From Candidatus Tenebribacter davisii (GTDB taxonomy: Bacteria > Cloacimonadota > Cloacimonadia > Cloacimonadales > TCS61), in assembly GCA_030765535.1 (NCBI GenBank), contig JAVCCH010000178.1, positions 1-45,857 of the forward strand: a stretch of DNA of 45,857 nucleotides. Reading direction: 5' to 3'. The notes beneath the pieces are model-generated. The model had not been told where the DNA came from. It saw only the letters and a list, made by a program, of their open reading frames with translations, and searched no databases. This document shows, piece by piece, positions 3,023 through 45,857 of the stretch. Position 1 is the stretch's first letter. Each line of letters starts with the position of its first letter. The position numbers and the translations under genes were made by a program.

Positions 3023-3643
3023 CTACAAATTTGAACCAGCAAATATCAATTCTTGGACTGGCTTATAAGATCTCCGATGACAATCGATTATTCCAAATTT
3101 ATCAAGAGCTGCAATATGTTCTTTGGTTGGATATCCTTTATTCTGCTTGAAATTGTACTGAGGGAATTGCTCATGAATTTTGTACATAATTCTATCTCGT
3201 GTTACTTTTGCTATAATGGATGCGGCAGCAATTGAAGCTATTTTAGCATCACCCTTCACGATTGCTTTTGAGAAATTTTCTAATTTCATTGGAATTTTGT
3301 TTCCATCAATTAAACAGAGATCAGGTTTAATCTTCAGAGCAAGAACAGCTTCTTCCATCCCCAGTAGGGTAGCCTGCAGAATGTTTATTTTATCAATTAT
3401 CTCTGGTGAGATTACTTTCACTTCCCAGCAAATGGCTTCTTCCGTAATTATATCGTAAAGCTTTTCCCGCTTTTTCTCACTTAGTTTCTTAGAATCGTTG
3501 AGTCCTGGAATTTCCTTATTTATGTCCAGAATGACAGCAGCTGCTACAACCGGTCCTGCCAACGGTCCGCGACCTGCTTCATCAATCCCGGCAATAATAC
3601 CGAATTCCTTAGCATAACGTTTTTCATTTTTATATAATAGCAT
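3023..3643 (-). CDS. rnhB: Ribonuclease HII
   Basis: Cleaves RNA in RNA-DNA hybrids and starts removal of misincorporated ribonucleotides; cytoplasmic. The 206-residue length is typical. The motif GIDEAGRGPLAGPVV (residues 19-33) carries D21 and E22, LIDGN carries D113 and VKGDAK carries D132: the four acidic metal-binding residues of the family. DSKKLS and the C-terminal HRRSYKPV segment are also present. The start ATG overlaps the stop of the upstream pdxA-methyltransferase gene by one base (TAATG), so the two are almost certainly co-transcribed and translationally coupled. Confidence 0.96.
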   Translation of the reverse strand: MLLYKNEKRYAKEFGIIAGIDEAGRGPLAGPVVAAAVILDINKEIPGLNDSKKLSEKKREKLYDIITEEAICWEVKVISPEIIDKINILQATLLGMEEAVLALKIKPDLCLIDGNKIPMKLENFSKAIVKGDAKIASIAAASIIAKVTRDRIMYKIHEQFPQYNFKQNKGYPTKEHIAALDKFGIIDCHRRSYKPVQELIFAGSNL

Positions 3644-5352
3644 TATTTTTCCAGAATAAAGAATAATCGCGAAAAGTTTGATTCTAAGATCTTTGGATTA
3701 TGATCTATGAGATTATCTTGAGAGCCAATTCGGTAAATTCCCTTAATTTTAAGATCTGTTGCTCTAATATGATCTAATAATTCATTAACGGCAAATATCT
3801 TTTGTTTATGTGTTTCATTATATTTAGTGTATTGAAATCCTTTCTTTTTAAAAATTGTTAGATTTGTCACTTGAGTATGATTTGAAGCCTCGAAATCACT
3901 TTGATGGATAAATGTATCTCCATTGATCTGTTCGATATTAATGAATCCATCAAAATTACTTTCACAGTTTTTTGGAGTTGTAATATCAAAAATGAAAATA
4001 CCTTTTGCGGTTAGTGTATGATAAACATTATTTAGTAAAATATCAACTTCATTAATTTTATGCAGATAGTTCAAACTATCAAAAAGTAAAATAACAAGAT
4101 CATATTTATTGCCTGGAAGATCATCAGTCATACCCATCAATCTCAAATTTGGGGCAAAAGGTTTTCTGGAGGCAATTCTAAGCATTTCCGGTGAAAGATC
4201 AGAGGCATCAACATTCAATCCCCTTTTAACTAATAATGAGGATACATTAGCGGTTCCACAAGCAAGTTCTAAAGTTCTCTCAGGACTTTTACAACAGATC
4301 TTATTATAATGAGATAATATTAAATGAACCCAGTTTTTATATTCTACATGTTCCATATATTTATCGTAGTATTCTGCAAAAATGTTATAATTAGGATTTT
4401 CATTATCTTCTTTTTTTGTGATCATTTTTACAGCAAATCTTATAGCCTGTAATAAGCTTTTTTCTGAAGCAATATCTTTACCGACAATATCGTAAGCTGT
4501 TCCATGATCTACTGATGTTCTAATATAAGGTAATCCAAGTGTTACATTAACACCTTCTTCAGCGGAGATCATTTTAAATGGGATCAATCCTTGATCATGA
4601 TAGGCAGAAATTATCATATCATAAGAAGTTGCTTTTGTAGCAAAAAAAGTATCTGCCGGGAAAGGACCATCAATATTAATATTTTCTTCTTTTAATTTAT
4701 TTAGGATTGATGCAATATATTCATCATCATCACCAAAAGCACCATTCTCTCCAGCATGAGGATTTACAGCCAGCATTGCAATTTTTGGATGTTTAATTAT
4801 CTTCTTAGTTTCCTGATCTATAAGTTTGAATTTAGATTCCAAAGAACTGGATCTGAGATATTTTGAAACATTAGAAACTGCAATATGAGTGGATAAAAGT
4901 GAAAGATTAAAATATGGACCCCAAAATGACATGATCACATTTCTGGTATTAGATCTTGCTGCGAAGAACTCTGTGTGACCAGTAAAATCAGGATATGTAT
5001 AACGAATTGCTTCTTTGCAAACCGGTGCAGTTACAACGGCATCCAGTTCTCCGGAATTAAGATCATCAGCACAACGGGATAAAATCTCATAAGCCAGTAT
5101 TCCGCTTTGAGCAGTTGGTTTACCCGGTTCGATCTGGTTATTGTCAATTTCGATCCAATAAATATTTTCAGGGGAGTTAGCCTTGGATATGCCAGCAATT
5201 TTCTTTACTGGATTTCCTTCAGAAGTTTTATTTAATTTACCGTATACAATAAATATTATATCTTTATTAAATTTTAGAAATCGGATCGCTTTTGCTGTAA
5301 TTTCAGGTCCAATACCAGCAGGATCTCCAGTTGTAATTGCTATTCTTTTCAT
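3643..5352 (-). CDS. PdxA fused to a C-terminal SAM-dependent methyltransferase
   Basis: Single uninterrupted 569-residue frame. Residues 1 to about 313 are 4-hydroxythreonine-4-phosphate dehydrogenase (PdxA, pyridoxal phosphate synthesis): TTGDPAGIGPE at 7-17, metal-ligand histidines H156, H199 (NPHAGE) and H252 (AYHDQG), and DHGTAYD near 282. Residues about 320-569 form a class I methyltransferase of YqeM-like type, beginning with the NIFAEYYDKYM segment, with the SAM motif LELACGTANVS near 361 and DLVILLFDSLNYL near 418. The start chosen is the ATG at 5352, with AAGGA upstream and the family's MKRIAITTGDPAG beginning; a longer TTG start at 5409 adds a non-homologous leader. The methyltransferase substrate is unknown. 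Fusion to PdxA is not the usual arrangement. Confidence 0.9.
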   Translation of the reverse strand: MKRIAITTGDPAGIGPEITAKAIRFLKFNKDIIFIVYGKLNKTSEGNPVKKIAGISKANSPENIYWIEIDNNQIEPGKPTAQSGILAYEILSRCADDLNSGELDAVVTAPVCKEAIRYTYPDFTGHTEFFAARSNTRNVIMSFWGPYFNLSLLSTHIAVSNVSKYLRSSSLESKFKLIDQETKKIIKHPKIAMLAVNPHAGENGAFGDDDEYIASILNKLKEENINIDGPFPADTFFATKATSYDMIISAYHDQGLIPFKMISAEEGVNVTLGLPYIRTSVDHGTAYDIVGKDIASEKSLLQAIRFAVKMITKKEDNENPNYNIFAEYYDKYMEHVEYKNWVHLILSHYNKICCKSPERTLELACGTANVSSLLVKRGLNVDASDLSPEMLRIASRKPFAPNLRLMGMTDDLPGNKYDLVILLFDSLNYLHKINEVDILLNNVYHTLTAKGIFIFDITTPKNCESNFDGFINIEQINGDTFIHQSDFEASNHTQVTNLTIFKKKGFQYTKYNETHKQKIFAVNELLDHIRATDLKIKGIYRIGSQDNLIDHNPKILESNFSRLFFILEK

Positions 5353-5507
5353 ATTTATTAATTCCTTTTTTAAAGCATCATTAACTATTTCCAGAAAAAA
5401 AACACTCAATCTGTCAATTTATTTATTGTCATAATAAGTAATAATGAATAAATTATCAATGCATAAAGATTTATTTATTAGATAATTTTTTAAGAAGTGA
5501 GGAAATT

Positions 5508-6326
5508 ATGATTAGGAATCCAGTTGTTGCAGGTAGTTTTTATCCGGGAGATTCAAGTATTCTGAGTAAACAAGTAACCAAATATTTACAGGAAGCCAGT
5601 ATTAATGACGAAATAGAGGATATATTAGGTGTAATTTCACCTCATGCAGGTTATGTTTATTCCGGTCAATGCACAGCATTCAGTTTTAAAGCCATAGAGA
5701 AAAAGAATTTCGATCTTGCTGTAATAATTGCACCAAGTCACAGATATGCTGACTTTGATTTTTCACTTGGTGATTATGATGAGTATTTAACACCATTAGG
5801 CGGAGTAAAAGTAGCAAAAGATATCGTTAAAGAATTAATGGAAAGATATGATCTGAAAGCACATTATTATGCTAATAATATTGAGCACTCACTGGAAGTT
5901 CAACTTCCTTTTTTGCAGATGGTAAAACCAGATGCTAAGATCGTTCCAATCATACTTGGAGAACAAAATTCTAAAAATAGTCTACAGCTTGCAGACATGC
6001 TTGTTGATTTTTTTAGAGAAAGAATTGATAAGACAGTTTTTATTATCAGCAGTGATTTGAGTCATTATCATGACAGTGAAACAGCAACTAAAATGGATAA
6101 AATTGTAGCAGATAATTTTGAGCATCTTGATATAGAAATGATGAAAAAAAGTATGAGTTTTGATGAAATAGAAGCTTGTGGAATTGGTGGGATATTAACA
6201 TTAATGAATCTTGCCAAAAAGCTTGAATATAATAAAGTTACAACCTTGGATTATAGAAATTCTGGTGATGTTAGTGGTGATTATAAACAAGTTGTAGGTT
6301 ATCTATCAAGTTGTGTTTATAAATAA
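5508..6326 (+). CDS. amrB: MEMO1-family protein (AmmeMemoRadiSam system protein B)
   Basis: 272 residues, usual family length. The family is related to extradiol dioxygenases, and human MEMO1 binds metal through two histidines and a cysteine. Equivalent residues here are H46 (SPHAGYVYSG), H78 (APSHRY) and C224 (EACGIGG). IEHSLEVQLPFLQ and ISSDLSHYH are also family signatures. In many bacteria and archaea it is encoded with an AMMECR1 protein and a radical SAM enzyme; neither is in this window, so any partners must lie elsewhere. Start supported by AGTGAGGA four bases before the ATG. It is divergent from the pdxA fusion gene and followed by the tRNA cluster. Its biochemical role in bacteria is not settled. 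Confidence 0.9.
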   Translation: MIRNPVVAGSFYPGDSSILSKQVTKYLQEASINDEIEDILGVISPHAGYVYSGQCTAFSFKAIEKKNFDLAVIIAPSHRYADFDFSLGDYDEYLTPLGGVKVAKDIVKELMERYDLKAHYYANNIEHSLEVQLPFLQMVKPDAKIVPIILGEQNSKNSLQLADMLVDFFRERIDKTVFIISSDLSHYHDSETATKMDKIVADNFEHLDIEMMKKSMSFDEIEACGIGGILTLMNLAKKLEYNKVTTLDYRNSGDVSGDYKQVVGYLSSCVYK

Positions 6327-6775: not shown

Positions 6776-7258
6776 ATGGAGCAAAATTCATATAGAACGT
6801 TAGGGCATTATATTCATTTTCGTTTAGGAAGTGGAAACATCCTGAATATTATAAGATCAATGTTTATTAAAGCGTTTAAAGCAAAATCTGCCAAAGAATT
6901 CTGGAATTATTGGAATCCATTATTCGGATATTATTTATTATTCTATTTATATAAACCCTTAACCAATAAGATACCCAGACCGTTCCGAGTAATAGTAACA
7001 TTTACGATTTCAGGTTTTTTCCTGCATGATCTTTTATTTTGGTGGCCATTCTGCTGGCTCATTACATATAAAACTCGTTTTCCTTTGGGAACAGTATGGT
7101 TTTTTTTTATGGCAATATTTATGTTGATATCTGAGAAAATTGGTTTCAATACTGAGAAACATTCAACCGGAATTCGTGTTTTATCAAATTTGAGTTATTT
7201 GAGTATAACGCTTGCCTTAACATTGTTAGTAGCAATTAGTTTTAACTTACTTAATTAG
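6776..7258 (+). CDS. Small MBOAT-like integral membrane protein
   Basis: 160 residues with about four predicted membrane segments. The pattern FWNYWNPLFGYYLLFYLYKPL, then about 20 residues later ISGFFLHDLLFW, resembles the catalytic core of membrane-bound O-acyltransferases (FWxxWH... followed by GxWHG), including one conserved-looking histidine. Normal MBOAT proteins have 400-500 residues, so this is at best a minimal core or a distant relative; no substrate can be assigned. The start at 6776 is chosen because AGGAAGAAT precedes that ATG; the longer frame from 6701 has no ribosome binding site. It sits alone after the tRNA terminator, and its 3' end overlaps the convergent BtpA-family gene by 8 bases. 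Confidence 0.6.
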   Translation: MEQNSYRTLGHYIHFRLGSGNILNIIRSMFIKAFKAKSAKEFWNYWNPLFGYYLLFYLYKPLTNKIPRPFRVIVTFTISGFFLHDLLFWWPFCWLITYKTRFPLGTVWFFFMAIFMLISEKIGFNTEKHSTGIRVLSNLSYLSITLALTLLVAISFNLLN

Positions 7259-8069
7259 TACTGCTATTTGATAATTTTCTCAAGTGCTGTATAAATAATT
7301 GAATCCTTTCAGTTGAAACACTATTTTGCCAGTTTCCATCTTCTTTAAAATACGATCCAATAATAAAACCGTCAGCAAGATCCCAATATTTCTCTATATT
7401 ATCAAGTGTGATCCCGGAACCTATCAGAATGGGAAGTTTACAAGCTCCACCTGCTTTGCGTAATTCACTTAATTCAGCTTCTTCTGAGGTTGATCTGCCA
7501 GTAACAATAATTCCATCTGCCATGAAAAATTCACATGCTTCTGCGAAATCTTTAATATCAAGATCAGAAGTTATGGCATGGGAAGAGTGTTTCTTCTTAA
7601 TATCAGCAAATACGGCAATATCTTCAGCTCCAATCATAGCTCTATAACGCATAAGCTCACCCGCACAAGCATTCATCAAACCTTCATCAGCAATATGAGA
7701 ATACACAAATCCTTCTACTCTAATAAAATCACATCCAGAAGCTTGTGCAACAGCCAGCGCTTCCTTATTGGCTTCCGCCAATATCTGAACACCACATGGC
7801 ATAGATATATTTGTATTAACTTCAGTTGCTATAGCTGTCATTGATGCAGTTATTTCCGGTCCTACTTGCTGGTTCAGATACGGTACATCGTGCATATTTT
7901 CCAGGATGATAGCATCTAATCCATTTTGTTCATACAGTTTTGCTTCTTGAACAGCATGAGAAATTATTTGTGATATGGGATATTTATGTTTTGGTGTGCC
8001 GGGAAGCGCATCGACATGAACCATGCCGATTATCAGTTTTCTCTTTTGTATTTCTTTTAAAAAGTTCAT
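7251..8069 (-). CDS. BtpA/SgcQ-family TIM-barrel protein
   Basis: 272 residues, the family's usual length. The N-terminal GMVHVDALPGTPKH matches the BtpA signature (G-hydrophobic-H-x-x-x-LPG-S/T-P). GLDAIILENMHDVP, the glycine-rich ILIGSGIT near residue 222 and DGFIIGSYFKEDG look like the strand-loop phosphate-binding elements of a (beta/alpha)8 barrel. Known members include cyanobacterial BtpA (photosystem I biogenesis) and E. coli SgcQ (a sugar-related gene cluster); the enzymatic activity is not established. It is third in a leftward run behind a TPP-riboswitch-controlled symporter, with its ribosome binding site (AAGGA) inside the end of the preceding gene, which suggests a link with thiamine metabolism. 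Confidence 0.85.
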   Translation of the reverse strand: MNFLKEIQKRKLIIGMVHVDALPGTPKHKYPISQIISHAVQEAKLYEQNGLDAIILENMHDVPYLNQQVGPEITASMTAIATEVNTNISMPCGVQILAEANKEALAVAQASGCDFIRVEGFVYSHIADEGLMNACAGELMRYRAMIGAEDIAVFADIKKKHSSHAITSDLDIKDFAEACEFFMADGIIVTGRSTSEEAELSELRKAGGACKLPILIGSGITLDNIEKYWDLADGFIIGSYFKEDGNWQNSVSTERIQLFIQHLRKLSNSSTN

Positions 8070-8070
8070 T

Positions 8071-8460
8071 CTAATCCTTCTTTATTTTCCAGTCTTTTCT
8101 TACACATTTGCAGAAACCATGATAGATTGCACAAATTCCACCCAGTGTTGCAAAGAATCCCCAAAAAAGCGGCATGGCAAAAATATAAATAATTTTCAAT
8201 TCTCCGGTTTTTTCGATCTGATGTGCTATCATTGGCACATAATATATCCCCGCTGTTATCAGCATACATCCGGCAACCACAACCATGTGTCCAAAGATTA
8301 TCGTACCATAACGATTTTTTACAAATTTTGAAACAATTAATCCTGCTCCGATCATGATCTTGATAATTGCCCAGAGATAGATCCCAATAATTAAATGATA
8401 AATTCCAAAAGCTAGAAGACCAATTCCTAATATTAATCCAACAATACCACCAGTTTTCAT
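8071..8460 (-). CDS. Small membrane protein of unknown function in the TPP-regulated operon
   Basis: 129 residues with about four hydrophobic segments (roughly 5-22, 27-45, 54-75 and 89-112) and a basic C-terminal tail containing CKCVRKDWK. I do not recognise the family. It starts 10 bases after the symporter stop and ends one base before the BtpA-family start, so it is almost certainly co-transcribed with both. It might be an accessory subunit for the symporter; that is inferred from position only. Confidence 0.7.
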   Translation of the reverse strand: MKTGGIVGLILGIGLLAFGIYHLIIGIYLWAIIKIMIGAGLIVSKFVKNRYGTIIFGHMVVVAGCMLITAGIYYVPMIAHQIEKTGELKIIYIFAMPLFWGFFATLGGICAIYHGFCKCVRKDWKIKKD

Positions 8461-8470
8461 TTCTTTTCTC

Positions 8471-9907
8471 CTATTTATATGATAGTTTATTTTTATACTT
8501 GCTAAAAAGACCGTAGCTTACTAAACCCAGAGAAGTTGCTAGAATTCCCATATAGAGTTCATCCACATTTTGCCAGAATCCAGGCAGCGTAATATTTCTC
8601 CAAATACTTACCGTGATAATTCCTAAAATGCTGGCAAAAACAAACTGCTTATCTTTGATCTTTCCAGGGAAAATGTATCCATATAGAACTGGAAGCAGCA
8701 GGCAACTGGCAGAATAACTACCCAGAGTTTTCCAGACTGCTTTAATATTACCATCAAATACAATTCCCAATAAAATTGCTAATATTCCCACAAAAATAAT
8801 TCCTAAATGATAAAGTGATATTTTCCCCTTCCATTTTTTAGGCATCATATCATAGGAAACAGTAGTGCCGGCAATGAATAGATAAGAATCTAATGTAGAT
8901 AGTATTGTTGCCAGAATTCCTGCCAGGACCAGACCTCGTATTCCATTTGGAAGGATTTGAAGTGCATAGATCAGATATGCTTTATCGGAAGCTGCTTCTG
9001 GGATTACGGCTCTAGCATACATGGCACCTGCTGTTGTGCAGATATCAAAAAGGATCCAGATAGCGGTAGAGATGAGAATTCCTTTTTTGGCAATCTTCGT
9101 ACTTTTAGCAGCAAAAACTCTCTGATAAAAATTGGGATCTACTAAAGTAGAAAGTGCTATAAATCCCCAAACTAGTGTTGTGGCAATTCCCTCTCCTCCG
9201 GTAAGTGTAAAATGACCGGCAGGGAGATTTGCTTTTAAAAAACTGATCCCGCCAAATAATTTATAGGAAAATAATAAAATTAGAAATACACCCAGACACA
9301 TTACAAAGAACTGGATAATATCAGAAAAAACAACAGCTCTAAATCCACCATAAAGTGTGTAAAGAACTACTACCGTTACACCTATTATCATGCTTAACAG
9401 AAATGTAATTCCAAATAAAGCTTGGATAAGAAGACCTAGACTTATCACATAGGCAATAGGCAGAACATTGAAAAAATTGAAAACCGCGCTTAATTTTCCG
9501 GCTTTTGGCCCGAACATCTGCTCGATCAGGTCTGGTAAAGTTACAGCTTTATATTTTGCTACTTTATGGGTGATGAAGAAGGCAAATAGAATATAAGAAA
9601 TATACCAGAAGACACCTTGAGTTATAAAATTAAAGATCCCTTGTTCAAAAGCAATTTTGGTAACACCAAAGATCCCACCATACCAGGTTGCAACCAGTGT
9701 AGCAACGAACATCGGTAAGGTAAGTTGTCTTCCCATTAGCAATAGATCTAAAAATCGAGCTTCTTTGTTCTCTGAAACCCCTTTTTTCTTCTTTAAATAT
9801 TGTCCGTAGATTACTGATATAAATGTTAAAAGTAAAATTCCAAAAAAAACGATCCAATCCAATCTACTCAAAATTGTCTTGTAATCTATTGTTAAATCAA
9901 ATTCCAA
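8471..9907 (-). CDS. Sodium:solute symporter (SSS family), likely thiamine or precursor uptake
   Basis: About 478 residues with 12-13 hydrophobic segments typical of the SSS (PF00474) fold. Family features include the segment around MFVATLVATWYGG in helix 1-2, VVLYTLYGGFRAVVFSDIIQF, and the helix-8 region GLVLAGILATILSTLDSYL, where serines near the sodium site occur. The protein would import a solute with Na+ across the inner membrane. A TPP riboswitch directly overlaps its translation start, which points to thiamine, a thiamine phosphate, or a pyrimidine or thiazole precursor. Other SSS-family proteins under THI-box control (called ThiV) are known. The start is placed at TTG 9907, six bases after AAGGAG; the ATG at 9928 lies inside the aptamer and has no ribosome binding site. 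Confidence 0.9.
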   Translation of the reverse strand: MEFDLTIDYKTILSRLDWIVFFGILLLTFISVIYGQYLKKKKGVSENKEARFLDLLLMGRQLTLPMFVATLVATWYGGIFGVTKIAFEQGIFNFITQGVFWYISYILFAFFITHKVAKYKAVTLPDLIEQMFGPKAGKLSAVFNFFNVLPIAYVISLGLLIQALFGITFLLSMIIGVTVVVLYTLYGGFRAVVFSDIIQFFVMCLGVFLILLFSYKLFGGISFLKANLPAGHFTLTGGEGIATTLVWGFIALSTLVDPNFYQRVFAAKSTKIAKKGILISTAIWILFDICTTAGAMYARAVIPEAASDKAYLIYALQILPNGIRGLVLAGILATILSTLDSYLFIAGTTVSYDMMPKKWKGKISLYHLGIIFVGILAILLGIVFDGNIKAVWKTLGSYSASCLLLPVLYGYIFPGKIKDKQFVFASILGIITVSIWRNITLPGFWQNVDELYMGILATSLGLVSYGLFSKYKNKLSYK

Positions 9908-9997
9908 ATTCAACTCCTTGTTCGGCATTATCCGAAAAGTCAGAGGGTTTAAGTGATATTCACTTCTCAGCCAATAGTTTTGGCTCCCCTGTTATTT
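9908..9997 (-). promoter_or_regulatory. TPP riboswitch (THI box) controlling the symporter operon
   Basis: Read leftward: CAGGGGAGCC, a P3 hairpin GCCAA/TTGGC, the invariant CTGAGA, an optional P3a hairpin AAGTGA/TCACTT, AACCC, then CTCTGA and CGGATAATGCCG. These are the conserved blocks of the TPP aptamer in the correct order. The closing P4 strand GGAG is part of AAGGAG (9914-9919), the symporter's only good ribosome binding site. TPP binding would therefore hide it, giving translational control. I see no terminator between aptamer and gene. Confidence 0.93.
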
Positions 9998-10120
9998 GAT
10001 TATTAAAATTCAGTTTCAAAGTTTATAAGTCAAATTATTTCTAATATTTGAGAAAGTCTTTGACATTCAAATCGTTCCTTTTTTTTTCAATTTGTAGTTA
10101 GTTCTTTATAATTATTGCTG

Positions 10121-10208
10121 TCAATGGGGTGCTGTTTGTTATTAGGCAAACGGTTGAGAACATACCCTTGAACCTGATCCGGATAATGCCGGCGTAGGAA
10201 ACTGAAAA
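10121..10208 (+). promoter_or_regulatory. TPP riboswitch (THI box) controlling the TonB-dependent receptor
   Basis: The conserved blocks appear in order: GGGGTGC, a P3 hairpin GTTTG/CAAAC, GGTTGAGA (TGAGA core), ACCCTTGAACCTGATCC, GGATAATGCCGGCG and GTAGGAAACTGA. This is close to the textbook consensus. A rho-independent terminator follows within ten bases, so control is probably by transcription termination when TPP is bound. It lies about 125 bases from the oppositely oriented TPP riboswitch of the symporter operon. Confidence 0.97.
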
Positions 10209-10216
10209 TAGATTAT

Positions 10217-10258
10217 AAAACACAATTCGGTTTTTTACCGGGTTGTGTTTTTTGTTTT
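10217..10258 (+). terminator. Riboswitch expression-platform terminator
   Basis: A 15-bp stem (10217-10231 with 10237-10251, two G-U pairs) with a T5 loop is followed by a T-rich tail. It lies between the TPP aptamer and the receptor start at 10288, the classic position for a riboswitch-controlled terminator. Confidence 0.92.
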
Positions 10259-10287
10259 TAATAATAAATTTTATAGAAGGGAAGAAT

Positions 10288-12726
10288 ATGAAAAAGTTTA
10301 GTTTTATCTTAATAAGTTTAGTTGTAATTGTAAGTTCTATGTTTGCAGAGCAGTTAGCAGGAAAGATCACAGATGCACAAACTGGAAAACCGATCGCTCA
10401 AGTTAGCGTGTATGTGGAAACGATGAATATATCTGCTGTTTCTGATGCAAAAGGTGAGTATAAGATGAACTTCATCAAGCCGGCAAATTTTGAGATATTC
10501 TTTGAGCGAATAGGTTATGAGAAGAAAGCTATTATCCATAATCCGTTTGATTCTGCTATTTTGAATGTGCAGCTGACAAGAGATCCCAAACATATTTCCG
10601 GAATAAAAATATCAGCTACAAAAGCGAAAGAACGTGAAACACCTGTTACCTTTACAAATATTACCCAGAATGATGTTCTGCAAAATAATTTTGGTCAGGA
10701 AATTCCATTATTGATGGAAGATGTCCCGGGGGTTTATGCCTATTCGGATGCTGGTGGATTAGTAGGGAATACACATCTTACAATTCGTGGTTTTGATCAG
10801 AAAAGAATAGGTGTGATGATCAATGGTATTCCGCTTAACGATCCTGAAGATCACAATGTATATTGGGTAAATATGCCCGATTTTGCTGAAAGTACATCCG
10901 ATATACAATTCCAGCGGGGTGTGGGTAGTTCACTTTACGGGATTTCAACTTTTGGTGGCTCACTGAATATGCAGACACAATCTTTTGTTAAGAAAAATAG
11001 AACAGAGTTCTTTTCCGCATTCGGTAGTTATAATACGTATAAAGTCGGCTTAAAAACAGCACAGAAGTTTGGGAAATACAGTACAAATATCCGATTTTCC
11101 CAGGTTGCTTCCGATGGATACAGAGATAACTCAGCTTCTAATCTCTGGTCTATTTTCACAAATGTTTCCAGACAGGGAGAACGATCAATGACAGAGCTAA
11201 ATTTCTATACCGGACATGAACTTACTCATGCTGCCTGGGAAGCTTCAGGAGATTGGGAACTGGAAGAGAACCATCAACATAATCCATATACATACGACAA
11301 TTATGTAGATGATTTTTCCCAACCGCATTTTGAATTGCATCACAGTTATTTCTTAAATGATAATTCAGAAGTTAATAACTCAATTTTCTATATTCACGGC
11401 AACGGTTTTTATGAACAATATAAAGAAGATCGTAATCTTTGGGAACACGGTCTGGTTGATGTTGATATTGATGAAGAGGCTGATATCATTCGCCAAAAGT
11501 GGATTACTAAAAATCACTATGGCTGGGTTTCTCAGTACAATTTACGTCACCGGAAAGGAACCTTTACTGCAGGAACTTATCTGAGCGGATTCAATAGTGA
11601 TCATTGGGGAGAGATAAAAGAGGTGATTGGTGTTGATACGCTTGATTATGTAAGCGGTCAGGATTACTATAATTACATTGGAGAAAAACAATATTTAACT
11701 GCTTACCTAAATGAAACTTATAAACCAGTAAATAATCTTTCAATTATGGTTAATTTATATTTACAGCATATTAATTATAACTTTGAACAATTGGAAGCTG
11801 GTAATTATTTCGGAGAAAATCTGAATGCTTATGAAGTGGATTACAATTTTTTTAATCCACGCTTTGGTGCTAATTATAATGTGAATGAAAGTTTGAATAT
11901 TTACGGAAATTTTTCTATCTCACAGAGAGAACCTACGGACAGTGAACTCTATGACACCTGGGATGGACCTGATGATCTAGGTGTAGCACCTCTTTTTGCT
12001 GTTGCAGATACAGTTTATAATGATGATGGTGATATCGAGAAGATCAATTGGAGTGACCCGTATGTGAAAGAAGAGAAATTACATGATATTGAATTTGGGG
12101 TGGGATATTCCAAGGGATTGGTTGATCTCGATATAAATGGATATTGGATGAATTTCACCGACGAGATAGTTGCTTATGGAGGAGTTGATGATGAAGGAAG
12201 TCCAATTAGAGGAAATGCTGATAAAACTGTTCATCGTGGTTTGGAACTATCCGCAAAAGTGATATTACCTGCCAACTTGAAATTATCCGCTAACTTTAGT
12301 TATAGTGATAACTATTTTGAAAAATTTATTATGAAAGATTGGTCCGGAGATATAGATCTTTCCGGAAACACTATTGCCGGATTCCCGGATATTGTCAGCA
12401 ATGGTAAGCTTATCTATAGCTTAGAACATTTCAATATTTTTACTCAACTTCAGTATGTAGGGAAACAATACTTGGATAATACTGAAAATGAGGATCGCAT
12501 AATTGATCCATTTAGCATTGTTAATATGGGAGCTGTTGTTAACATCACAAAATTATTTGATAAATTTGATTTGCAATTGAACCTGAAAGCAAATAATATT
12601 TTAGATAAAGAATATGAAACTGCCGGTTATTATGATCCCTGGGGTGGAGAGGACTGGACTGGAGCAAACTATTACTGGCCTGCTGCAGGAAGGAATTTTG
12701 TAGCTGGTTTGAGGGTTGGATTTTAG
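10288..12726 (+). CDS. TonB-dependent outer-membrane receptor, likely thiamine uptake
   Basis: 812 residues. A signal peptide spans residues 1 to about 20 (ends MFAEQ). A carboxypeptidase-regulatory-like domain follows (about 22-105, GKITDAQTGKPIAQVSV). The plug domain is about 130-235, with VPGVYAYSDAGG, LTIRGFDQKRIGVMINGIPL and QRGVGSSLYGISTFGGSL. The remainder is a beta-barrel ending in an aromatic residue (GLRVGF). It would import a ligand across the outer membrane using TonB energy. The TPP riboswitch upstream indicates thiamine or a derivative; THI-box-controlled TonB receptors are known in Bacteroidetes. The start at 10288 follows GAAGGGAAGAAT and begins the signal peptide; the longer frame from 10243 begins inside the terminator stem. 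Confidence 0.95.
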   Translation: MKKFSFILISLVVIVSSMFAEQLAGKITDAQTGKPIAQVSVYVETMNISAVSDAKGEYKMNFIKPANFEIFFERIGYEKKAIIHNPFDSAILNVQLTRDPKHISGIKISATKAKERETPVTFTNITQNDVLQNNFGQEIPLLMEDVPGVYAYSDAGGLVGNTHLTIRGFDQKRIGVMINGIPLNDPEDHNVYWVNMPDFAESTSDIQFQRGVGSSLYGISTFGGSLNMQTQSFVKKNRTEFFSAFGSYNTYKVGLKTAQKFGKYSTNIRFSQVASDGYRDNSASNLWSIFTNVSRQGERSMTELNFYTGHELTHAAWEASGDWELEENHQHNPYTYDNYVDDFSQPHFELHHSYFLNDNSEVNNSIFYIHGNGFYEQYKEDRNLWEHGLVDVDIDEEADIIRQKWITKNHYGWVSQYNLRHRKGTFTAGTYLSGFNSDHWGEIKEVIGVDTLDYVSGQDYYNYIGEKQYLTAYLNETYKPVNNLSIMVNLYLQHINYNFEQLEAGNYFGENLNAYEVDYNFFNPRFGANYNVNESLNIYGNFSISQREPTDSELYDTWDGPDDLGVAPLFAVADTVYNDDGDIEKINWSDPYVKEEKLHDIEFGVGYSKGLVDLDINGYWMNFTDEIVAYGGVDDEGSPIRGNADKTVHRGLELSAKVILPANLKLSANFSYSDNYFEKFIMKDWSGDIDLSGNTIAGFPDIVSNGKLIYSLEHFNIFTQLQYVGKQYLDNTENEDRIIDPFSIVNMGAVVNITKLFDKFDLQLNLKANNILDKEYETAGYYDPWGGEDWTGANYYWPAAGRNFVAGLRVGF

Positions 12727-44359: not shown

Positions 44360-45085
44360 TTAATTGAATTTTTTATTAGATCTATTTATTAATATGTTAA
44401 GCAGGGAATCAACAATAATTCCAGCAAATCCCATTGTAATAAAATAGATAAACATTTCCGGATATTTAAGTAAATAGCGAAAATCCATTAGTCTGAATCC
44501 CATTCCATTATTAACTCCCAGCATTTCTGCTGCAATAATTACAGTCCAACCCAGTCCCCAGATCAATCGGAATAAATGCATAAGAGAAGGAAGTGTTAAA
44601 GGTAGTTCTATATGAATGAACATCTGCAGATGAGATGCTCCCAATACATGACCTTCATCAAGATATTCATGCGGGAGATTGGAGAAATGACCGGATGATG
44701 CGATTAGAGTGGGGAAAAAGAGGGTGATGAACATAATAAATATAACCGGAGATTCTCCTAAGCCAAACCATATAATAGCAAACGGAAGCCAGACAAAAGG
44801 AGAAATATGACGAATGAAATTAATGATCGGTATAAACAGATTGTTTAATATTGCAGAATAATACAGCAGATAACCACCCAATACTCCGGATACCCAGGCT
44901 ATAATAGAGATGATCGTAACTCGTAAAAAAGATATCATTAGATCTTTCATGAGCAGATCAATTGATAACCTGCTATTCAGAATTTCACTTAATGTAATTC
45001 CAAGTGAAAGAGCTAAAATAATGAAGAATAATAAGACAAGTAAGCCGCCTAGAATTTTAGAGCTATTTAATTTCGAAATAAACAT
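44360..45085 (-). CDS. ABC transporter permease (SsuC/TauC/ThiX type)
   Basis: 241 residues with about six membrane helices. The EAA loop, which contacts the ATPase, is GASHLQMFIHIELPLTLPSL, and WGLGWTVIIAAEMLGVNNGMGF is typical of the nitrate/sulfonate/taurine permease family, which also includes the pyrimidine-precursor permease ThiX. The start overlaps the 3' end of the substrate-binding gene by 23 bases. No ATPase gene follows within the window; it may lie upstream, beyond the right edge. Substrate undecided. Confidence 0.9.
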   Translation of the reverse strand: MFISKLNSSKILGGLLVLLFFIILALSLGITLSEILNSRLSIDLLMKDLMISFLRVTIISIIAWVSGVLGGYLLYYSAILNNLFIPIINFIRHISPFVWLPFAIIWFGLGESPVIFIMFITLFFPTLIASSGHFSNLPHEYLDEGHVLGASHLQMFIHIELPLTLPSLMHLFRLIWGLGWTVIIAAEMLGVNNGMGFRLMDFRYLLKYPEMFIYFITMGFAGIIVDSLLNILINRSNKKFN

Positions 45086-45857
45086 CTTCCATTTTTATCT
45101 GATTGTTAACATAACCTTTATCGATCATTTTATTAAATGTTTTCAATTCAAATTTCTTCATATTTTCATCTAATCCCATTATATATTTTGTGTGATATAA
45201 AGATTGCTTTGAGTATGGTGGATACAATTTATAGAATTCTTCAATTGCTTTATAGGCAGTATCAGGTGATTTGTTAAGTTCAGATGTAGCGGAATTCAAT
45301 CCGTTAAGAAATTCTGAGATCAGATCAGTTTTAGTTCTAATTGCATTCTCTGTTGCAGATATATCACAGCATGTATGAAGCGGATAATCATTACCATACC
45401 AATGGATTATATTGTAGCTGCTGGGAAATTTGAAAATAGAAGGAACATAATAACTAAGGGCATCTACCTCTCCAGATTTTAACGCAGCCGCCATGTCCAT
45501 TGGAGTGCGGAAATAAACAAATTCCAGCTTGATATCATGATCTTCAGAAAAAAGTTCAGCAAAAATATCCAGAGTTGAAGCTTTCAGAACACCGATCTTC
45601 TTGCCATTTAGCTGATCAATATTCTTAATTTCCGGTCGAGTTATTATTCCATCACTTTCACGTTCAAGAAAAGAAATTATCTTAACTTTTTTATCATTTG
45701 CTATATCCATCCATGTATAGGTAAAGGGCATAATTGCTATATCAATCTTCCCGGAAATAAGAGCTTCATTGGTTTCCCACCCGGAAGTGAATTCTCTAAT
45801 AATGTAATTTTCCCGATTCAGAAATTCGGTAGCCAACCCAAAATCAAAGGGAAGATG
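45063..45857 (-). CDS. ABC transporter substrate-binding protein (NMT1/ThiY-like), 5' truncated
   Basis: The frame is open to the right edge (residues HLPFDFG precede the first TTG at 45836), so the signal peptide and first strand are missing. About 264 residues are visible. GWETNEALISGKIDIAIMPFTY, LNGKKIGVLKASTLDIFAEL and FRTPMDMAAALKSGEVDAL match the periplasmic-binding-protein group of the NMT1/THI5-like, sulfonate and nitrate systems. Cognate permease gene overlaps downstream. Ligand could be a sulfonate, nitrate or thiamine-pyrimidine precursor; sequence alone does not choose. Confidence 0.88.
   Translation of the reverse strand, partial: HLPFDFGLATEFLNRENYIIREFTSGWETNEALISGKIDIAIMPFTYTWMDIANDKKVKIISFLERESDGIITRPEIKNIDQLNGKKIGVLKASTLDIFAELFSEDHDIKLEFVYFRTPMDMAAALKSGEVDALSYYVPSIFKFPSSYNIIHWYGNDYPLHTCCDISATENAIRTKTDLISEFLNGLNSATSELNKSPDTAYKAIEEFYKLYPPYSKQSLYHTKYIMGLDENMKKFELKTFNKMIDKGYVNNQIKMEDVYFEIK

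Follow-up and report, generated by a model that had tools for sequence, protein, structure and literature searches.

Few riboswitch classes are as widespread as the thiamine pyrophosphate (TPP) riboswitches, which also serve as a drug-target model; to our knowledge, their recognition of the pyrophosphate has been treated as universal. Several described systems place vitamin B1 uptake genes under such riboswitches. The Cabys_3975-3977 locus of Caldithrix abyssi consists of a TPP riboswitch followed by genes for a TonB receptor, a symporter of the sodium:solute symporter (SSS) family and thiamine pyrophosphokinase (TPK) (PMC5317091). Two Bacteroidetes contigs (L114 and L115) have the order TonB receptor, TPK, SSS, which in L114, where upstream sequence is present, lies under a TPP riboswitch. 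Here we analyze a related locus in a stretch of 45,857 nucleotides (the window) from Candidatus Tenebribacter davisii, a Cloacimonadota bacterium with a 3.0 Mb draft genome of 95% completeness. In this locus, genes for a TonB receptor and an SSS symporter diverge from a pair of TPP-type aptamers, one of which has lost the pyrophosphate-binding part of its ligand site.

Infernal searches of both strands with the Rfam model RF00059 bore out the two back-to-back TPP aptamers of the original prediction, one at 10116..10217 on the plus strand (62.1 bits, E 6e-10) and the other at 9898..10000 on the minus strand (55.0 bits, core 9910-9995). They are the only two matches to this model in the whole genome. 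As had also been proposed, the first aptamer faces the TonB receptor and the second a three-gene run beginning with the SSS gene, which agrees with the protein families of the encoded products, and the divergent pair recurs in eight congeners and several further genera of the family. The pairing of receptor and symporter under TPP control, singled out before as a notable design, is thus real, but due to the Caldithrix locus (PMC5317091) and the TonB receptor-TPK-SSS operons it is not new in kind (compare also OMthi and PnuT in Bacteroides, PMC5613172). The new part is the SSS-side aptamer together with its counterpart in Bacteroidota, a variant within a known riboswitch class whose ligand has likely changed. 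Calling the two elements a TPP-riboswitch pair is appropriate on the receptor side, which is canonical, but doubtful on the SSS side, where the pyrophosphate-binding residues have been lost under strong conservation.

In TPP riboswitch structures, G60, C77 and G78 are conserved contacts to the pyrophosphate and its metal ion (Mg) (PMC3764141; PMC7824784). The receptor-side aptamer has all three, which places it among the TPP riboswitches; it shares with thiM the pyrophosphate-sensor sequence ACCUGAU..GCGUAGG and has a GAU/CGU pocket and a UGAGA T-loop, and the receptor-side aptamers of relatives keep C77 and G78, except for one C77U. Every SSS-side aptamer lacks these residues. There, only one or two nucleotides are left of G60-A61-U62, and A-rich letters stand in for C77-G78-U79, so that the region reads ACUU-A-UCGG-RUAAUG-CCGA-AAAAGGAG in most relatives (pocket A/AAA) and ACUU-U-..-ACAAGGAG in the window genome (pocket U/ACA). 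The pyrimidine half of the site is kept (UGAGA T-loop, G19, the P3 G-C and L5 UAAU), as are P2, P3 and P5. The RF00059 score barely passes the cut-off of 54.3 bits because the pyrophosphate-sensor motif is absent and not because of noise; several relatives score below the cut-off. A covariance model of the variant (R1) scores the SSS-side aptamer of the window at 93.9 bits.

Among 125 genomes of the phylum, this model had matches above 50 bits in 17 genomes from 17 species and seven genera, all of them at SSS genes, which alone carry the variant in Cloacimonadota. The canonical aptamers of the phylum precede genes for TonB receptors, ThiE, Thi4-like and ThiS-like proteins and a few others; in two genomes (L032 and L051, from G027 and G025), a canonical aptamer lies directly 5' of a predicted methyltransferase-like gene. 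Mean identity is 96% in the core of the variant aptamer, 43% at the fourfold-degenerate sites of the SSS gene and 82% in the SSS protein. This conservation and the performance of the dedicated model rule out a chance match or a degenerate pseudo-aptamer. The variant occurs throughout the Cloacimonadota part of the SSS tree, beginning with the first clade member to branch off (G015), and was lost in G029/G035, in G016 and in G010. RNAalifold covariation was uninformative on the Cloacimonadota set because its core helices hardly vary.

The element might have decayed to a structure that sets the level of translation by itself, ligand control being gone. Four relatives, of which G035 keeps a remnant, have lost the aptamer-like sequence 5' of SSS, which would fit such decay, as would the variable letters of J4/5 (A, U or G) and J5/4 (AA, AC, AU or UA). 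We nevertheless find this quite improbable, as the T-loop and the L5-P3 docking elements are invariant or nearly so in 16 SSS-side sequences from 16 species, and no variation is seen at those nucleotides of the pyrimidine half that form the ligand site or take part in docking, while silent sites are near saturation.

The expression platforms of the two aptamers differ, being transcriptional on the receptor side and translational on the SSS side. Between the receptor-side aptamer and its gene lies an intrinsic terminator (10217..10258, plus strand) with a 15-bp stem and a T-rich tail (one found in the terminator scan against 0.2 expected; fold z −6.0), and an equivalent hairpin with a U-run, showing compensating changes, is present in all of the 13 relatives examined. 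No antiterminator pairing was identified by eye for this leader. Since the aptamer is followed by a conserved terminator, high TPP would be expected to bind the canonical aptamer, favor the terminator and switch receptor transcription off. A weak promoter-like site (TTTTCA-17-TATAAT, 10084..10112, plus strand, 10/12 in the consensus scan) lies just 5' of the aptamer, but such sites are no more frequent than in shuffled sequences. The SSS-side leader has no terminator and instead embeds the Shine-Dalgarno sequence AAGGAG (9914..9919, minus strand) in the aptamer, at the 3' strand of P4 and the start of P1. P4 is formed by CUU paired with the AAGG of this motif, and the aptamer fold pairs its AAG and last G; in the window genome, P1 can extend over the SSS start codon. 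As the Shine-Dalgarno sequence is paired in this fold, a ligand that stabilizes P1 and P4 would block translation of SSS. The conserved start is TTG 9907. An alternative start at ATG 9928, which falls within loop L5 of the aptamer, was rejected, as a stop codon closes its frame in G018, G030 and G021.

SSS orthologues of Bacteriovoracia, which fall outside the Cloacimonadota clade in the SSS tree, have leaders with canonical GAU/CGU pockets, even though these leaders share the CUU/AAG P4 and the same embedded AAGGAG. The embedding hence does not force the loss of the pocket, which must have been a separate, derived step. These orthologues bear in two ways on the possibility that TPP is still sensed on the SSS side, at a reduced affinity or with another metal coordination, within an ordinary TPP-controlled pair. 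The changed pocket would then adjust the set point or be a consequence of placing the Shine-Dalgarno sequence in P4. The canonical aptamers of the orthologues are in keeping with this possibility, as are the Rfam score of the SSS-side aptamer and the canonical aptamer of the paired receptor; the orthologues' retention of the pocket despite the embedding argues against it. As, in addition, every pyrophosphate-contacting base is replaced in the SSS-side form and a covarying base pair closes the pocket in the Bacteroidota form described below, we regard continued TPP sensing as unlikely, albeit deserving of serious consideration. One SSS leader from Bacteriovoracaceae (L111, ~5798-5985) contains an aptamer with a long insertion that was missed by Rfam and whose pocket looks canonical.

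When the variant model was run against 395 genomes of Bacteroidota, it gave eight weak matches, three of which also lack C77 and G78. A pattern describing this collapsed Bacteroidota form matched 14 of the 398 genomes searched from one order, and the reversed control pattern matched none. In all 15 genomes with a downstream gene (these 14 and G415), that gene encodes a TonB receptor homologous to the one in the window. A single covarying base pair replaces A61-U62/C77-G78 (C-G, A-U, U-A, G-C or G-U, with G-A in 3 of 14 distinct sequences), and the form appears to have arisen independently of the SSS-side one. ThiC is absent from 13 of the 15 genomes. The other two, G1049 and G1089, have ThiC and place the thiC biosynthesis operon under a canonical aptamer and the receptor under a collapsed one, so that import and biosynthesis genes carry different pockets within one cell. 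The same two genomes contain a third, odd TPP-like element (UAAGGGUGGCC; L218 at 4096 in G1089, L219 at 4326 in G1049). It is directly followed by a terminator hairpin, and the next ~1 kb downstream contains no gene on its strand. A further collapsed-type match in Bacteroidota (L170/L178, ~6502 in G488) lies on the minus strand, has no downstream gene on that strand and was left aside.

We parsed 99 distinct aptamers, which are not a random sample in that collapsed forms had been searched for: 66 have a GAN/CGN pocket, three have C77U and 30 are collapsed, with no intermediates. Tentatively, and with slightly less than even confidence, we propose that the collapsed-pocket aptamers of Cloacimonadota (at SSS) and Bacteroidota (at TonB receptors) form an unrecognized riboswitch variant whose ligand is free thiamine or a different non-pyrophosphorylated compound and which serves specifically to control B1 import, with canonical aptamers on biosynthesis in the same genomes where both occur.

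The original prediction took the locus to serve transport and not biosynthesis, and the gene content of the 14 genomes with the divergent pair substantiates this. ThiE was found in none of them and TPK in 11; no ThiC match passed the cut-off, with one fragment in G006 scoring below it. Without ThiE, hydroxymethylpyrimidine (HMP) is unusable and thiamine must be imported. ThiE is likewise absent from 9 of 10 SSS-bearing genomes of Bdellovibrionota and Bacteroidota. Judged from gene content and order, it is close to certain that the locus imports thiamine. The role of SSS as the importer is well supported by the lack of ThiE and ThiC, the presence of TPK in relatives, the TonB receptor-TPK-SSS operons and the Caldithrix locus.

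The ligand could also be another pyrimidine-bearing compound imported by SSS, such as HMP, thiamine monophosphate or a thiamine breakdown product, given that the conserved half of the aptamer is the pyrimidine pocket and that HMP is the substrate of SAR11 ThiV, which is also an SSS protein controlled by a TPP riboswitch (PMC11452348). The absence of ThiE from all 14 pair genomes, which precludes making thiamine from HMP, and the operons shared by related SSS genes with TPK, which needs thiamine, make this very improbable.

The explanation we favor, at about even confidence, is a thiamine-import locus of a thiamine auxotroph in which the SSS operon is controlled by a derivative of the TPP aptamer whose most likely ligand is free thiamine and not TPP. 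Thiamine would cross the outer membrane through the TonB receptor and the inner membrane through the SSS symporter, and TPK, encoded elsewhere, would convert it to TPP. The SSS-side aptamer, with its pyrimidine-binding T-loop and L5/P3 docking parts but without the pyrophosphate pocket, would respond to the transported vitamin prior to pyrophosphorylation. We infer thiamine as the substrate, repression as the direction of regulation and free thiamine as the ligand. The choice of ligand follows from a phosphate pocket that is closed next to a pyrimidine pocket that is retained, from the import of thiamine by the genes, and from the behavior of free thiamine in Bacteroides: in B. thetaiotaomicron, its intracellular share goes up with supply, which would make it a usable signal (PMC5613172). 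Several points weigh against this explanation. Canonical aptamers bind thiamine incompletely, with their arms undocked (PMC4775224), although a stiffer P4-P5 arm might, speculatively, dock without phosphates. With a canonical TPP aptamer retained at the receptor, receptor and symporter would respond to two different ligands. The variant has been lost 5' of SSS in at least the four relatives named above, so that its control is dispensable. Finally, TPK was not found in the window's own genome, a draft that is 95% complete.

The TonB-dependent receptor (10288..12726, plus strand) has plug and barrel domains and an N-terminal CarboxypepD_reg domain (PF00593, PF07715, PF13715) and is probably the outer-membrane thiamine receptor; on inspection of the sequence, we reset its start from TTG 10243 of the long open reading frame to ATG 10288. 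The SSS symporter (8471..9907, minus strand, PF00474), probably the inner-membrane thiamine importer, has choline transporters as its nearest solved structures. The usual second gene of its operon, in the same order in relatives, encodes a small membrane protein of 129 residues (8071..8460, minus strand) without a family match in Pfam or NCBIfam, and the usual last gene a BtpA/SgcQ-family protein (7251..8069, minus strand, PF03437, 5e-74). The latter is predicted to be a TIM barrel of the HisF/ThiE type (AlphaFold pLDDT 85.8) and had no match in a sequence search of the PDB. Since Foldseek matched the model only to generic TIM barrels, mainly HisF, which was the best match, with ThiE among the others, we do not claim a function for this protein. 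The gene order PdxA, Memo, tRNAs, BtpA, small protein and SSS, divergent from TonB receptor, BirA and QueA, is well preserved across the family, apart from some gene losses. A single open reading frame at 3643-5409 (minus strand) joins PdxA to a methyltransferase domain, an arrangement kept in relatives. At the edge of the window (44360-45857, minus strand) are genes for an ABC permease and an NMT1/THI5-like substrate-binding protein. No TPP riboswitch accompanies them, and a ThiXY-like transporter of HMP would be unexpected in a genome that lacks ThiE.

If our proposal is correct, a natural ligand switch has occurred within the TPP class, represented by a conserved set without the pyrophosphate half of the site. 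This set is found only before import genes, in mostly B1-auxotrophic bacteria, and comprises short RNAs from ~30 species. It could also bear on the finding that transport operons under TPP riboswitches in Bacteroides respond unlike the biosynthesis operon (PMC5613172). We found no earlier description of collapsed-pocket variants in the open-access literature, which does not fully exclude one beyond it.

Compared to the TPP riboswitch (RF00059, THI element), the SSS-side aptamer has the same P1-P5 layout, UGAGA T-loop, L5 UAAU and association with thiamine genes, but its pocket letters are replaced and its P4 is shared with the Shine-Dalgarno sequence. The HMP-PP riboswitch (thiS motif) also has a thiamine-pathway ligand other than TPP (PMC6478431), yet is architecturally unrelated, embedded in a terminator and associated with biosynthesis genes. 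Like the Caldithrix locus and L114/L115, the locus described here combines a TonB receptor and SSS under TPP-type control; those have one locus with one riboswitch, including TPK, whereas here the genes are divergent, the aptamers are of two types, TPK is encoded elsewhere, and the BtpA-family and small membrane proteins are added. Like thiamine TonB receptors of the OMthi type, its receptor is controlled by a TPP riboswitch and belongs to a genome that requires thiamine. Bacteroides OMthi (BT2390) and PnuT-Tnr3 similarly pair an outer-membrane TonB receptor with an inner-membrane importer, each with a TPP-type riboswitch (PMC5613172), but the importer is PnuT there and SSS here. SAR11 ThiV, likened here by family (PF00474) and aptamer and not by sequence, is an SSS symporter under a TPP-type riboswitch as well (PMC11452348); it carries HMP in HMP auxotrophs, whereas in our genomes, which are missing ThiE, the expected substrate is thiamine.

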